Of a stretch of DNA of 64,000 bases, positions 47,109 to 50,887 are shown piece after piece. Origin of the DNA: Bacteroidia bacterium (lineage in GTDB: Bacteria > Bacteroidota > Bacteroidia > B-17B0 > Aurantibacillaceae); the NCBI GenBank assembly GCA_018000995.1, contig JAGNIU010000002.1, positions 130,483 to 194,482 of the forward strand, read 5' to 3'. The stretch's first letter is position 1. The number at the start of each line of letters is the position of its first letter. Position numbers and translations under genes: made by a program. The notes beneath the pieces are model-generated. The model worked only from the letters and a program-made list of their open reading frames with translations, searched no databases and was not told where the DNA came from.

Positions 47109-47906
47109 ATGAAATCGGTATTTATACTAAGTTTTATGGTTTTTATTGGGAGAATTTACTCTCAACCATTGGTAATTGCCCATCGAGGAGCCAGTGCCTG
47201 TAAGCCCGAGAATAGCATTTCTGCATTTGAAGAAGCCATTAAAATGAAAGCCGATTACATCGAGACCGATGTTCATCAAACAAAAGACGGCATAGTTGTT
47301 ATTATGCATGATTTTTCGGTATCACGCACCTGCACAACTCCCAAAAACTCAATAAGCGATATTAAAGACTTAAGTTTTTCTGAATTCTCAGCTCTGAAAA
47401 TAAAAGGTACAAACGAACATCCTCCCAGTCTGGATTCTGCCATAAAATGTATTAACGGTCGCTGTAAATTATTAATAGAAATAAAAAAAGGTGGTGATTA
47501 TTATCCCGGCATTGAAAATAATATTTTAGCAATCATAAAAGCCAACAAGGCCGAGGCTTGGGTCGATATAATCCACTCGTTTGATAAGCAGGCCCTCCTG
47601 AATTTACAGCAACAAAAAACAGGGGCAAAACTTCAAAAACTAATTGTATTTAAGTTCCCTTTGGCCAGCTTTACTTTCTCGAAAAAGGGGGAAAAAGACG
47701 ATTTTTCGGCCTGGCAAGGGGTTAATATAAATAGCCATTTTGCCTCTAAAAGAATCATCAAAAAACTTCATTCTCAGGGCAAAACGGTATTTGTTTGGAC
47801 CGTCAATAAAAAGCGGAAAATGAAGAAATTAATCCGCTTTAAGGCCGATGGCATTATTACAAATAAGCCCGATTTAGCGAGGGAAGTTGTTTTAGGGAAT
47901 AAATAA
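47109..47906 (+). CDS. Glycerophosphodiester phosphodiesterase family protein
   Basis: This hydrolyses glycerophosphodiesters to glycerol 3-phosphate and an alcohol; 265 residues. A signal peptide (about 1-18, ends IYSQP) indicates a periplasmic or surface location. The TIM-barrel active site is clear: PLVIAHRGASACKPENS (His, Arg), then ADYIETDVHQTKDGIVVIMHD (Glu, Asp, His). Later HSFDKQALLNL and VFVWTVNKKRKM follow the family, and it ends ADGIITNKPDLA. It is monocistronic and divergent from dapD. Its stop is followed within 10 bases by the promoter of the tRNA locus. Confidence 0.93.
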   Translation: MKSVFILSFMVFIGRIYSQPLVIAHRGASACKPENSISAFEEAIKMKADYIETDVHQTKDGIVVIMHDFSVSRTCTTPKNSISDIKDLSFSEFSALKIKGTNEHPPSLDSAIKCINGRCKLLIEIKKGGDYYPGIENNILAIIKANKAEAWVDIIHSFDKQALLNLQQQKTGAKLQKLIVFKFPLASFTFSKKGEKDDFSAWQGVNINSHFASKRIIKKLHSQGKTVFVWTVNKKRKMKKLIRFKADGIITNKPDLAREVVLGNK

Positions 47907-47912
47907 ATTTAC

Positions 47913-47920
47913 TATATTTG
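47913..47920 (+). promoter_or_regulatory. -7 element of tRNA-Arg locus
   Basis: TATATTTG fits TAnnTTTG exactly, 16 bases before the first base of a displaced tRNA-Arg 5' fragment at 47937. That distance suits a tRNA promoter with a short 5' leader. A TTTA lies about 18 bases upstream as a weak -33. It now also reads through the first GIY-YIG gene. Confidence 0.65.
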
Positions 47921-47936
47921 CCCCCTCGAATTTAAC

Positions 47937-47973
47937 GGTTACGTACCCGCCTGCGGCAGGCAGGGCTCAACTG
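47937..47973 (+). pseudogene. tRNA-Arg 5' fragment interrupted by a palindrome
   Basis: GGTTACGTA (47937-47945) and GCTCAACTG (47965-47973) are identical to nucleotides 1-18 of the intact tRNA-Arg at 48227. Between them sits CCCGCCTGCGGCAGGCAGG (47946-47964), a near-palindrome with arms GCCTGC/GCAGGC. After base 47973 the similarity fades (aATAaAc against gATAgAg). The fragment lies directly behind the tRNA-type promoter and 14 bases before the GIY-YIG ATG. It looks like the displaced 5' end of the ancestral tRNA gene. Confidence 0.85.
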
Positions 47974-47987
47974 AATAAACTTGAAAA

Positions 47988-48236
47988 ATGAGTAAGTTCT
48001 TTGTCTATGTTTTGAAAAGTGAAAAAGACGGTCGCTTGTATAAAGGTTTTACCAATAACATCGACCGACGAATAGATGAACACAATAAAGGGCAAAATAA
48101 ATCAACAAAAGGATTTAGACCTTGGAAGTTAGTTCATATTGAAAAGTTTGCTACTTTAACGGAAGCAAGAAATAGAGAGAAGTTTCTAAAAACAGGACAA
48201 GGAAGAGATTACTTAAAAAAAATATTGGTTACGTAG
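47988..48236 (+). CDS. GIY-YIG nuclease domain protein 1, 3' end inside tRNA-Arg
   Basis: This is a stand-alone GIY-YIG endonuclease domain of 82 residues (UPF0213/UvrC N-terminal type). The motif is FFVYVLKS ... RLYKGFT (YKG in place of YIG). Catalytic candidates are Tyr in YVL, Tyr in LYKG, Arg in NIDRRIDEH and Glu in ARNREKFLKTGQGRDYL. The last three codons (Leu-Val-Thr) and TAG run into the tRNA gene: GTT ACG TAG are tRNA bases 2-10, a 10-base overlap. Its upstream leader contains the tRNA 5' fragment. Related proteins cut DNA with loose specificity. Here the arrangement suggests a nuclease that targets or inserts at the tRNA gene. Confidence 0.9.
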   Translation: MSKFFVYVLKSEKDGRLYKGFTNNIDRRIDEHNKGQNKSTKGFRPWKLVHIEKFATLTEARNREKFLKTGQGRDYLKKILVT

Positions 48237-48300
48237 CTCAACTGGATAGAGCATCGCACTACGGATGCGAAGGTTTGGGGTTCGACTCCCTACGTGACCA
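48227..48300 (+). tRNA. tRNA-Arg (anticodon ACG)
   Basis: The 74-base cloverleaf is intact. Acceptor stem GGTTACG pairs with CGTGACC (one T-G pair). The D arm is GCTC...GAGC. The anticodon stem TCGCA/TGCGA encloses loop CTACGGA with anticodon ACG, which reads CGN arginine codons after A-to-I editing. The T arm is TGGGG TTCGACT CCCTA. The discriminator is A and the CCA end is not encoded. It has no promoter immediately upstream: the upstream bases are the end of GIY-YIG gene 1, so it must be cut from a longer transcript. A strong terminator follows. Confidence 0.96.
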
Positions 48301-48309
48301 CAGATAAAC

Positions 48310-48338
48310 AAAAAGCCTCAACATTGTTGGGGCTTTTT
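48310..48338 (+). terminator. Terminator after intact tRNA-Arg
   Basis: Perfect 13-base arms (one T-G pair) AAAAAGCCTCAAC (48310-48322) and GTTGGGGCTTTTT (48326-48338) with loop ATT. It lies between the tRNA and the second GIY-YIG gene. Confidence 0.92.
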
Positions 48339-48359
48339 GTTGTAATTTCAAATTAGAAA

Positions 48360-48647
48360 ATGTATTTCGTTTATATCATAAAAAGCGAATCAATAGATAA
48401 GTTTTACGTTGGAGAAACTAATGACCTTGAAATAAGATTAAAGCAACATAATAACGGAGAATTTGATTTTTCTTTTACCAAACAAGCAAATGATTGGATG
48501 ATTTATTTTAAAATGGAGTGTCCTGATAGGTCAATTGCTAGAAAAATCGAATTACATATTAAAAATATGAAAAGCAGAAAGTACTTTGAAAGCTTGTCGA
48601 AATATCCCGAAATGACCCAAAAATTATTAGATAAATATATAAAATAG
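48360..48647 (+). CDS. GIY-YIG nuclease domain protein 2, ending at tRNA 3' fragment
   Basis: This is a second GIY-YIG domain protein, 95 residues, clearly of another subgroup than the first: YFVYIIKSESIDKFYVGET (motif YII/YVG), Arg in LEIRLKQHNNGEFDFSF, Glu in IARKIELHIKNMKSRKYFESL and the C-terminal SKYPEMTQKLLDKYIK. It starts 21 bases after the tRNA terminator. Its TAG stop is immediately followed by a copy of the tRNA 3' end, and the shared GAAGGTTTGGG begins with the G of the stop codon. It may be expressed by read-through of the terminator or from a promoter I cannot see. Same candidate role as protein 1. Confidence 0.9.
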   Translation: MYFVYIIKSESIDKFYVGETNDLEIRLKQHNNGEFDFSFTKQANDWMIYFKMECPDRSIARKIELHIKNMKSRKYFESLSKYPEMTQKLLDKYIK

Positions 48648-48695
48648 AAGGTTTGGGTCCCGATAGCTATCGGGACGACTCCCTACGTGACCACA
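48647..48695 (+). pseudogene. tRNA-Arg 3' fragment interrupted by a palindrome
   Basis: GAAGGTTTGGG (48647-48657) and CGACTCCCTACGTGACCACA (48676-48695) match the 3' part of the intact tRNA-Arg (48269-48302). In between TCCCGATAGCTATCGGGA (48658-48675), a perfect 18-base palindrome, replaces the GTT of the T-loop side. It is followed directly by a terminator, as a tRNA would be. It looks like the displaced 3' end of the ancestral tRNA gene. Confidence 0.87.
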
Positions 48696-48720
48696 AAAAG
48701 CCCCTCTTTAGGGGCTTTTT
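48695..48720 (+). terminator. Terminator after displaced tRNA 3' end
   Basis: Perfect 11-base arms AAAAAGCCCCT (48695-48705) and AGGGGCTTTTT (48710-48720), loop CTTT, starting on the last base of the tRNA 3' fragment. It shares the AAAAAGCC...GGCTTTTT build with the terminator at 48310. Bases 48721-48862 hold the leader of the next gene and nothing else I can support. Confidence 0.9.
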
Positions 48721-48862
48721 TGTTTGTAAACCCTTTGTTAATTTTTATTACGTTTTCCAACCATTTACGTACAACCTTATAAAAGACTTAGTTTTTTGCG
48801 TAATTTCAGCTGTTGTTTTTACTCAATTACTGATTAGGCCCGACCTTAAAAAATTTAAAGAA

Positions 48863-50887
48863 ATGAAAACTTGCTGCAGGATATTGCTGTGTCTTATATT
48901 TATTAACCTTCAGGGGTTTTCTCAAATTAACGCCTTTATAGTTGATGGTGCAGAAAAAACTATCGCTAAAACACATGAACCTTTATTTAATAAAGCTAAA
49001 CTATCGTTCGAAAATGAATTGTATTTAGAGGCCTTGCCTAATCTTGATTCACTTTTAAAATTGTATCCTGATAACGTAGCCGTTATTTACCTTGCAGGGA
49101 TTTGTCATGCCTACAATGAAGAAACTAAATCGAAAAGTGTAATTCTGTTATCAAAAATTGAAAGCCAAAAAACACAACTGGAATATTACAACTATAATCT
49201 GGCTTATGCCTACGAACAAATTGACAGTTCAAGATTAGCGGATAAATATTTTGCTGCTTTTATTTCCGAAGAATCTAAAAAACCACAACCCAACAAAGCA
49301 TTAATTGAACAAGCCACTCGCCGCATTGCTAATTTAAAAATGTTGGAGGCGATGAAAACAAAAATTAATATTGTTCAAATTAAAAATATTGGTCCGCCCG
49401 TTAATACCGATGCTTCCGAATACGTTGCTCTTATCCCATCAGATGAATCTTTTATGATATACACCTACCGAGGTAAATTATCAAAAGGTGGAAAACAGAA
49501 TTTAAAGAAAACAAAAATGGAAGGCCCTTCTAAAAAAGAAGAAGGTATTTATTTTGAAGATGTGTTTACCTCTAATCGCATAAATGATACATCATGGTCG
49601 GCACCAAAACCAATTATCAATATTAATACGATGTTACATGACGCCGCCGTAACCTTATCAGCTGATGGTACTCTACTTATTATTTACAAAAATATGGGTA
49701 CCGGAAATGGTGATTTATATTTAAGTAAACTCGAAGGTAAAACATGGACTGTTCCAAAATACCAAAAAGGATTAAACTCTGAGCAATGGGATGGTAGCGC
49801 TTGTTTTCTTCCGGATAAAAAACATATGATTATTTCGAGCGAACGAAAAGGTGGTTTTGGCGGAAGAGATTTGTACATGGCTGAAAAATTAGGTGACGAC
49901 CTTTGGGGCAATATCACTAATTTGGGTAAAGACATTAATACAGAATATAATGAAGATGCGCCCTTTGTTACAGCTGATGGTAAGATTTTATTCTTTTCTA
50001 CCGACGGTAAATTAAGTTCAGGCGGATATGATATTGTAAGAAGTGATTTAAAAAACGGAACATGGGGAACGCCATACAATTTAGGCAAACCGATTAATAC
50101 CGATAACGATGATAAATTTTTTATTGTAACAGGCGATGGTAAACGCGGCTACTACTCCACTTTCCAAAAAGGTGGTAAAGGCGAACAAGATATTTATTCG
50201 ATTGAACCGGGAATTCCGGGTAAGCCAATTGCATTAGTTCAGGTAACCGGAAACGTAACCGTTAACAACAAACCAGCAGAAGCTTCCATAGAAATAAAAT
50301 CTATTATTAATTCTAAATTCAAATCACAAAAAATTAATTCTAATTCTTCAAGTGGTAAATTTTTAATTAACCTTCCCTCCGGCGACGAATATGAGTTAGT
50401 TTTCACAAGTCCAAGTTTTGCAACTCAAACAAAAACGGTTCATACAGTTGGTATTGATTCGTTTATTCAAATAAATGTAATTGCCGATTTTTATGATGAT
50501 GCTTATGCAAAAGGTTTACAGGCAAAAAGCGATAGTCTGGCAAAAGCAAATACTACTTTAAACGAAGGGTTTAGCTTAAATGATTTTACTGCTAAGTTTG
50601 GAAATACTTTGGTTGACGGTTTAGTTTACCAAATACAAGTTGGGGCCTTTAAGTTTCAGGAAAATTTTAATTACACATACGTTTTAGGCTATGGTAAAAT
50701 TCAACGCAATAAATACGAAGACGGAATAACAAGATTCACTATTGGCTCTTACTCTAAGTGTAATGATTTATTAAATCACTTAAAGGAAATTCAAAAAGAA
50801 GCCGTGAAAGACGCCTTTATTATTGCTATTTACCAAGGCAAAAAATATTACTTGTCTGAACTCGTTAAAAGTGGAATTCTGAAGTAA
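48863..50887 (+). CDS. TPR-PD40 envelope protein with C-terminal SPOR-like domain
   Basis: This is a secreted or periplasmic protein of 674 residues. The frame extends to 48653, but those 70 residues translate the tRNA fragment and its palindrome; ATG 48863 opens a normal signal peptide (MKTCCRILLCLIFINLQGFSQ). Then come TPR-like helices (about 40-150), PD40 propeller repeats (about 200-450: IISSERKGGFGGRDLYMAEK, ILFFSTDGKLSSGGYDIVR, YYSTFQKGGKGEQDIYS), a carboxypeptidase-regulatory-like beta domain (about 465-545) and an end with YQIQVGAFKFQENFNYTYV, resembling a SPOR peptidoglycan-binding domain. The plan is like PorE-type proteins with SPOR in place of OmpA. Same architecture as the protein at 34112-35674. 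Confidence 0.83.
   Translation: MKTCCRILLCLIFINLQGFSQINAFIVDGAEKTIAKTHEPLFNKAKLSFENELYLEALPNLDSLLKLYPDNVAVIYLAGICHAYNEETKSKSVILLSKIESQKTQLEYYNYNLAYAYEQIDSSRLADKYFAAFISEESKKPQPNKALIEQATRRIANLKMLEAMKTKINIVQIKNIGPPVNTDASEYVALIPSDESFMIYTYRGKLSKGGKQNLKKTKMEGPSKKEEGIYFEDVFTSNRINDTSWSAPKPIININTMLHDAAVTLSADGTLLIIYKNMGTGNGDLYLSKLEGKTWTVPKYQKGLNSEQWDGSACFLPDKKHMIISSERKGGFGGRDLYMAEKLGDDLWGNITNLGKDINTEYNEDAPFVTADGKILFFSTDGKLSSGGYDIVRSDLKNGTWGTPYNLGKPINTDNDDKFFIVTGDGKRGYYSTFQKGGKGEQDIYSIEPGIPGKPIALVQVTGNVTVNNKPAEASIEIKSIINSKFKSQKINSNSSSGKFLINLPSGDEYELVFTSPSFATQTKTVHTVGIDSFIQINVIADFYDDAYAKGLQAKSDSLAKANTTLNEGFSLNDFTAKFGNTLVDGLVYQIQVGAFKFQENFNYTYVLGYGKIQRNKYEDGITRFTIGSYSKCNDLLNHLKEIQKEAVKDAFIIAIYQGKKYYLSELVKSGILK

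Follow-up and report, generated by a model that had tools for sequence, protein, structure and literature searches.

We found that the tRNA-Arg(ACG) gene of a Bacteroidia genome is flanked on both sides by a small GIY-YIG nuclease gene, and that beyond each nuclease gene lies a partial copy of the same tRNA that is broken by a palindrome. This arrangement is probably (at roughly 60%) the product of a free-standing homing-type element, made up of a nuclease and its cognate hairpin, that invades the arms of tRNA genes, keeps a whole tRNA and has non-autonomous hairpin-only copies.

Results

Two nuclease genes and two hairpin-broken tRNA copies flank an intact tRNA-Arg

In the window (the whole 64-kb stretch of DNA that was analysed), the locus lies on the forward strand and reads from left to right as a promoter-like box, a split tRNA 5' copy, gene 1, the intact tRNA, a terminator-like hairpin (T1), gene 2, a split 3' copy and a second terminator (T0). 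The box, TATATTTG (47913-47920), resembles a promoter –7 box of the Bacteroidota kind, and a similar box is also found upstream of the empty tRNA in relatives G005 and G012. From its sequence, TATATTTG would be the tRNA's native promoter, from which the 5' remnant and GIY-YIG gene 1 would now be expressed. The broken 5' copy (47937-47973) holds tRNA-Arg nucleotides 1–18 as two 9-base blocks that match the tRNA letter for letter, GGTTACGTA (nucleotides 1–9, 47937-47945) and GCTCAACTG (nucleotides 10–18, 47965-47973), and the 19-nt palindrome CCCGCCTGCGGCAGGCAGG (47946-47964) lies between them. Gene 1 (47988-48236) encodes 82 aa with a match to Pfam PF01541 (E = 7.8e-16), and its ORF shares 10 nt with the start of the intact tRNA-Arg(ACG) (48227-48301), so that its last codons and stop lie within the tRNA. 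This tRNA is uninterrupted, and no other ACG tRNA was found in the window's genome; an insertion must therefore leave it functional.

T1 (48310-48339) follows the intact tRNA and is not present in relative G006. Gene 2 (48360-48647) encodes 95 aa, again with a match to PF01541 (E = 4.9e-14), and ends at the first base of the broken 3' copy (48647-48694). This copy consists of tRNA-Arg nucleotides 43–53 (48647-48657), the 18-nt palindrome TCCCGATAGCTATCGGGA (48658-48675), which replaces three tRNA bases (GTT), and nucleotides 57–75 (48676-48694). T0 (48695-48721) resembles the terminator directly after the G006 tRNA and is the native terminator, pushed downstream by the insertion. TCCCGATAGCTATCGGGA is the only GC-rich palindrome with arms of at least 7 in the 64-kb window. 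Both broken copies fold as hairpins when folded as single-strand DNA, with a stability that is not unusual as compared to shuffled sequences (z = –1.1 and –1.6).

An initial annotation of this DNA had described the duplicated nucleotides 1–18, the first copy behind a tRNA-type promoter and followed by a GIY-YIG gene, and the end of that gene within the intact tRNA, all of which we found to be correct. It had placed the insertion in the D-loop; the break is actually between nucleotides 9 and 10 (9^10), at the junction of the acceptor stem and the D arm. It had also overlooked gene 2, the 3' tRNA copy and the palindromes, and the hairpin is the most informative part of the locus.

Two familiar explanations were rejected. 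For a group I intron, only the tRNA passes the Rfam gathering score among RNA families at 47800-48900, and the tRNA is uninterrupted. For an integrative element that uses the tRNA as an att site, there is no integrase ORF of at least 60 aa between 47907 and 48652, where the two nuclease genes are the only ORFs of that size.

Relatives carry empty and differently filled sites at the same tRNA

We defined the orthologous neighborhood in relatives by the GDPD gene followed by tRNA-Arg(ACG). In G005 and G012, a single clean tRNA-Arg(ACG) is present at the syntenic locus, which is thus an empty site of the kind that the initial annotation had proposed looking for. In G006, we found gene 1 and the same broken 5' copy, split at 9^10, upstream of the orthologous tRNA, without gene 2. 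The G006 tRNA is followed by a T0-like terminator that resembles the window's second terminator, indicating that gene 2 together with T1 is the inserted part in the window. The promoter-proximal 5' remnant is the native tRNA start. Another nuclease is found at a tRNA-Arg(ACG) in G001 and G004, with a break at nucleotides 22^23. Presence of the unit at the same locus is patchy among close relatives. Elsewhere in the Bacteroidota, Psychroserpens luteolus, the one locus found in a scan of genome contigs with a single protein, has a nuclease that is 65% identical to gene 1 together with a partial tRNA 5' copy at tRNA-Arg(TCG). The earlier proposal that the insertion keeps the tRNA whole through a carried or duplicated 5' part is supported by the empty sites in G005 and G012, by the native promoter-proximal remnant and by P. 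luteolus; the D-loop position has to be given up.

In G007, the 5' copy at tRNA-Arg(ACG) is broken by a double hairpin unlike that of the window and G006, and no nuclease gene is present. The flanks of G005 and G007 are mostly 92–98% identical (97.8% at tRNA-Arg(ACG)), and at tRNA-Arg(ACG) an extra block of ~69 bases is found in G007 only and is absent from G005. At tRNA-Phe, G007 has a block with its own terminator, a hairpin and the tRNA 3' end that is likewise absent from G005. Neither the promoter nor the trailer was copied in this before/after pair at tRNA-Arg. The initial annotation had reasoned that a 5' fragment in a relative lacking the gene would make the duplication accidental, and G007 is literally such a relative; however, an accident is not what its fragment looks like. 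It carries a hairpin of its own, of a family that is found at several other tRNAs of the G007 genome, and it is absent from G005; it is therefore a hairpin-only unit.

Hairpin-broken tRNA copies recur next to small GIY-YIG genes across Bacteroidia

To survey small GIY-YIG genes, we collected PF01541 matches in the window's genome and 40 relatives (41 genomes). Such genes are common in the surveyed Bacteroidia genomes. Of the 115 found, 39 are no more than 150 nt away from a tRNA, in every case on the tRNA's strand and never on the opposite strand. When gene 1 homologues from 395 Bacteroidia genomes were added, which enriches the set for the gene 1 family, 91 of 201 were near a tRNA on the same strand and again 0 on the opposite strand. 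By our own estimate (~31 tRNAs in 3.6 Mb), the chance expectation for tRNA adjacency is well under 1%. About two thirds of the surveyed small GIY-YIG genes are not at tRNAs, and many of these adjoin other dispersed palindromes; eight (L001, L003, L052, L114, L115, L118, L126 and L133) have copies of such palindromes on both sides, of types such as TTCGACAAGCTCA and CCCGAAACAAGTTCGGG.

With a strict filter, we scanned for tRNA copies that are interrupted by a foldback insert. Of 89 nuclease-tRNA loci, 54 carried such hairpin-broken copies, 62 in all, whereas the scan found none when the tRNAs were reversed or shuffled. A looser filter gave 93 real and 25 control matches, and we therefore used only the strict filter for claims. 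The difference of 62 to 0, together with the split copy shared by G006, led us to reject a chance origin of the duplication. In the window's genome, the scan finds broken copies solely at nuclease-bearing tRNAs. Across the set, many tRNA species carry insertions, similar splits occur in separate genera and most breaks bear a hairpin.

The insertions have two mirror layouts, on the 5' side (left) or the 3' side (right) of the tRNA. When the two copies enclose a nuclease gene, the break is in the D arm for every left copy (20 of 20) and in the anticodon arm or further 3' for every right copy (29 of 29). The initial annotation had proposed regeneration of the 5' end; this describes gene 1 and the left layout of P. 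luteolus, but it is only one of the two layouts, and the 3'-side layout is at least as common (29 vs 20). Related nucleases can be found in opposite layouts, as for L218 and L227 at tRNA-Glu.

Tandem arrays were also found. L203 consists of repeated units, the last of which ends in a whole tRNA. In L202 (G130:C9:905300-911200), a tRNA-Met is followed by ten tandem units of 457 bp that are nearly identical and contain a GIY-YIG gene, and each of these units also holds a second, different broken tRNA-like piece. At tRNA-Arg(TCT) in G000 and G001 (L007 and L108), the duplicated, palindrome-broken piece is a terminator or trailer and not the tRNA, which suggests that the possible targets include foldback DNA in general.

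Searches for phage and plasmid carriers gave only distant homologues, in Listeria, Staphylococcus, Radiobacillus and Azospirillum records and one faecal phage, and an IMG/VR scan with gene 1 gave no match. We found no description of the nuclease-hairpin-tRNA unit in the open-access literature searched.

Hairpin sequence follows the nuclease family

We compared the hairpins with a tree of 57 nuclease sequences, in which many forks are weak because the proteins are short. On this tree, hairpin family changes 7 times as compared to 21.9 ± 1.4 times (minimum 16) after shuffling, although we assigned the families by eye once the tree was known; the amino acid of the tRNA changes 24 times vs 38 after shuffling. 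A Mantel test, which uses the sequences and is independent of the families assigned by eye, gave r = 0.52 between nuclease and hairpin sequences (null maximum 0.21, 2000 permutations), and r = 0.47 when restricted to pairs at different tRNAs (null maximum 0.25, 2000 permutations). The hairpin TCCGCCGCGGCGGA is common to one nuclease clade at both tRNA-Val and tRNA-Phe. Hairpin sequence thus tracks the nuclease family more than the tRNA.

Hairpins without a nuclease gene have multiplied in G007. An exact search for the core of the double hairpin found 12 copies in G007 and 1 in G005; 10 of the 12 adjoin intact tRNAs and 2 are away from tRNAs. The sites are Arg-CCG (three in tandem), Phe, Arg-TCT on both sides, Asp, His and two Met, and most of the tRNA-adjacent copies have no nuclease gene in between. 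To the right of Arg-TCT, the copy lies within the tRNA trailer, as does the corresponding copy in G005. The nuclease gene at tRNA-His (L116) bears the G007 hairpin type and is likely the autonomous partner of these copies.

Other hairpins are dispersed. TCCCGATAGNTATCGGGA occurs at 10 sites in 3.6 Mb, 9 of them away from tRNAs, and other copies of the window's TCCCGATAGCTATCGGGA also lie away from tRNAs. We nevertheless rejected a description of the hairpins as ordinary genome-wide repeats: although TCCCGATAGNTATCGGGA is not confined to tRNAs, 10 of the 12 copies of the G007 hairpin are at tRNA loci. At L144:1048-1065, TCCCGATAGCTATCGGGA sits within a CCCTTCGACAAGCTCAGGG-type palindrome, apparently replacing AGC of its loop, as a hairpin in a hairpin. 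CCTGCC..GGCAGG palindromes are also found inside ORFs of the window's genome (L249, L252, L254, L255 and L256), where they translate to inserts like PAGQAG, PAGRAG or PARQAG; L252 reads EKDLPAGQAGNIS in a protein that, named by eye, is transketolase-like. These in-frame palindromes appear to resemble the protein-coding palindromes of Rickettsia.

The palindromes away from tRNAs, and the G007 copies that mostly lack a nuclease gene, would also be expected if the hairpins were dispersed REP-like palindromes moved by another enzyme, which often strike tRNA genes and are seen where the tRNA was duplicated because only those cells survive; the nuclease gene would then be a bystander or a second parasite. 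We consider this unlikely, as the type of hairpin varies together with the nuclease even when the tRNAs differ, and the broken copies that the scan finds in the window's genome are only at nuclease-bearing tRNAs. Moreover, ordinary tandem duplication should copy the promoter or the trailer, which is not what happened at the tRNA-Arg pair of G005 and G007.

The nucleases are single-domain proteins under purifying selection

The GIY-YIG domain spans residues 4–69 of 82 in the gene 1 product and 1–75 of 95 in the gene 2 product (Pfam PF01541), and no separate DNA-binding domain was found beside it in either. Such a domain is typical, perhaps not obligatory, for Seg-type free-standing homing endonucleases. 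Residues Y7, Y18, G20, R28, H32, E64 and K68 are invariant across 57 elements, and Arg and Glu have catalytic roles in GIY-YIG enzymes (PMC2988022). The nucleases thus retain the residues expected of an active GIY-YIG enzyme and would be able to cut DNA. The closest solved structures by sequence are UPF0213 stand-alone GIY-YIG proteins and SLX1 (PDB 1ywl, 1zg2 and 7wme), the SLX1 match being weak (E = 0.046). SLX1 is a structure-specific endonuclease, and a likeness to it would fit a hairpin or cruciform substrate. We know of no description of UPF0213 stand-alone proteins or SLX1 as mobile or tRNA-linked.

Between gene 1 and its G006 orthologue, dN/dS is 0.17, and values of 0.12–0.23 across comparisons indicate purifying selection on the nucleases. 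Selection of this kind, and a gene that runs in the same direction as the tRNA, apparently from the tRNA promoter, could point to a regulatory device. Within the tRNA transcript, the nuclease gene and the broken tRNA would then form a tRNA or stress sensor, with the hairpin as an RNA element and mobility secondary. Such a device is very unlikely given the patchy presence at the same locus among close relatives, the many tRNA species affected, the hairpin-only copies without a gene and the finding that no known RNA family except tRNA passes the cut-off. Tandem tRNA duplication followed by decay through unequal recombination, with nuclease genes captured by chance and palindromes acquired in later decay, can appeal to the existing tandem arrays and to broken copies that are non-functional tRNAs, but was already disfavored and is hardly credible with 0 of 91 neighbors on the opposite strand, a hairpin at most breaks, a clean partition of side to arm, similar splits in separate genera and exact insertions relative to close relatives.

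Discussion

Taken together, these data are best explained if each tRNA flank is a minimal mobile element, a single-domain GIY-YIG gene plus the hairpin of that nuclease family, which would enter a tRNA gene at the D arm, the anticodon arm or the T loop. After insertion, a complete tRNA would adjoin the nuclease gene and the outer partial copy would be broken by the hairpin at the entry point. We propose that the nuclease cuts or nicks tRNA genes at this point and that repair takes the tRNA-like halves of the element as homology arms, copying in the nuclease gene and the hairpin, by analogy with the homing of T4 Seg enzymes or of mobile ORFs in fungal mitochondria. The hairpin would interrupt the target in the outer copy and serve as a mark paired with the nuclease family, which may recognize it. 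Hairpin-only copies would be non-autonomous relatives moved in trans.

Repair could follow either of two routes. The break may be repaired from a donor that has one whole and one hairpin-broken tRNA copy; alternatively, a circle carrying a hairpin-broken tRNA may recombine on either side of the hairpin, which would explain why related nucleases are found in both layouts. The intact tRNA beside the nuclease keeps the presumed target, and the homing model does not account for protection of the donor. The hairpin-only copies combine a piece of the local tRNA with a shared hairpin, and homing from allele to allele would be insufficient by itself to produce them; nor does the model account for the transfer of a hairpin to a new tRNA that has only a few bases in common with it. 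A bolder possibility, which we put forward tentatively and hold to be doubtful, is a new class of bacterial transposable element, in which a single-domain GIY-YIG nuclease recognizes its own hairpin and inserts it, with or without the gene, into tRNA arms and other foldback DNA, sparing the host by a partial duplicate; the same machinery could then spread the dispersed palindromes of Bacteroidota, including the in-frame ones.

To our knowledge, the small GIY-YIG genes of Bacteroidia have no assigned job. The link to tRNAs assigns a location, and a role that can be tested, to one third of the surveyed genes. At roughly 0.3–0.4 kb, the element would be a very small autonomous mobile unit living on essential genes that are present in one copy. 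Through the pairing of nuclease and hairpin, the spread of small palindromes in bacteria could be tested directly.

As in T4/T6 SegB and other Seg enzymes (PMC2988022, PMC13096335), the units described here have a free-standing GIY-YIG gene among tRNA genes; the gene is intron-free with an intact catalytic domain, and it is present or absent at one site in close relatives. SegB is reported to cut tRNA genes at RAWTSGAAC (PMC13096335), and the reverse complement of this motif, GTTCSAWTY, is the T-loop consensus, where the T-loop class of hairpins is found here. Microhomology-based amplification of the tRNA-segB segment in tandem is also reported to be driven by SegB (PMC2988022, PMC13096335). 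In contrast to SegB, the units are chromosomal, occur in Bacteroidota, encode a single domain of 80–95 aa and have no close phage carrier that we found; most have a tRNA copy broken by a nuclease-specific hairpin, and hairpin-only copies exist.

In the mobile ORFs of fungal mitochondria (Allomyces atp6; Glomus atp6, atp9, cox2 and nad3), an endonuclease ORF is inserted into an essential gene together with a replacement gene end, and the native end is displaced beyond the ORF (PMC3630166). The 3'-side layout matches this, as a terminator of the native type is now found past the broken 3' copy. Unlike those ORFs, which are in mitochondrial protein genes and of the LAGLIDADG type in Glomus atp6, the units here are in tRNA genes of a bacterial chromosome; the description that we consulted mentions neither a junction hairpin nor a mirror 5'-side layout (PMC3630166).

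REP sequences with their TnpA-REP (RAYT) enzymes (PMC2817692, PMC8266576) likewise pair the enzyme of a single gene with cognate hairpins, which are found next to that gene and as dispersed, non-autonomous solo copies. However, REP/RAYT systems use an HUH/Y1 transposase, whereas the linked genes here are GIY-YIG and no Y1 enzyme is present at the locus, and the copies here are in tRNA genes with part of the tRNA duplicated. By analogy, the unit would work as free-standing homing elements do, with repair of the gene end, and its cognate hairpins and solo copies recall REP/RAYT.
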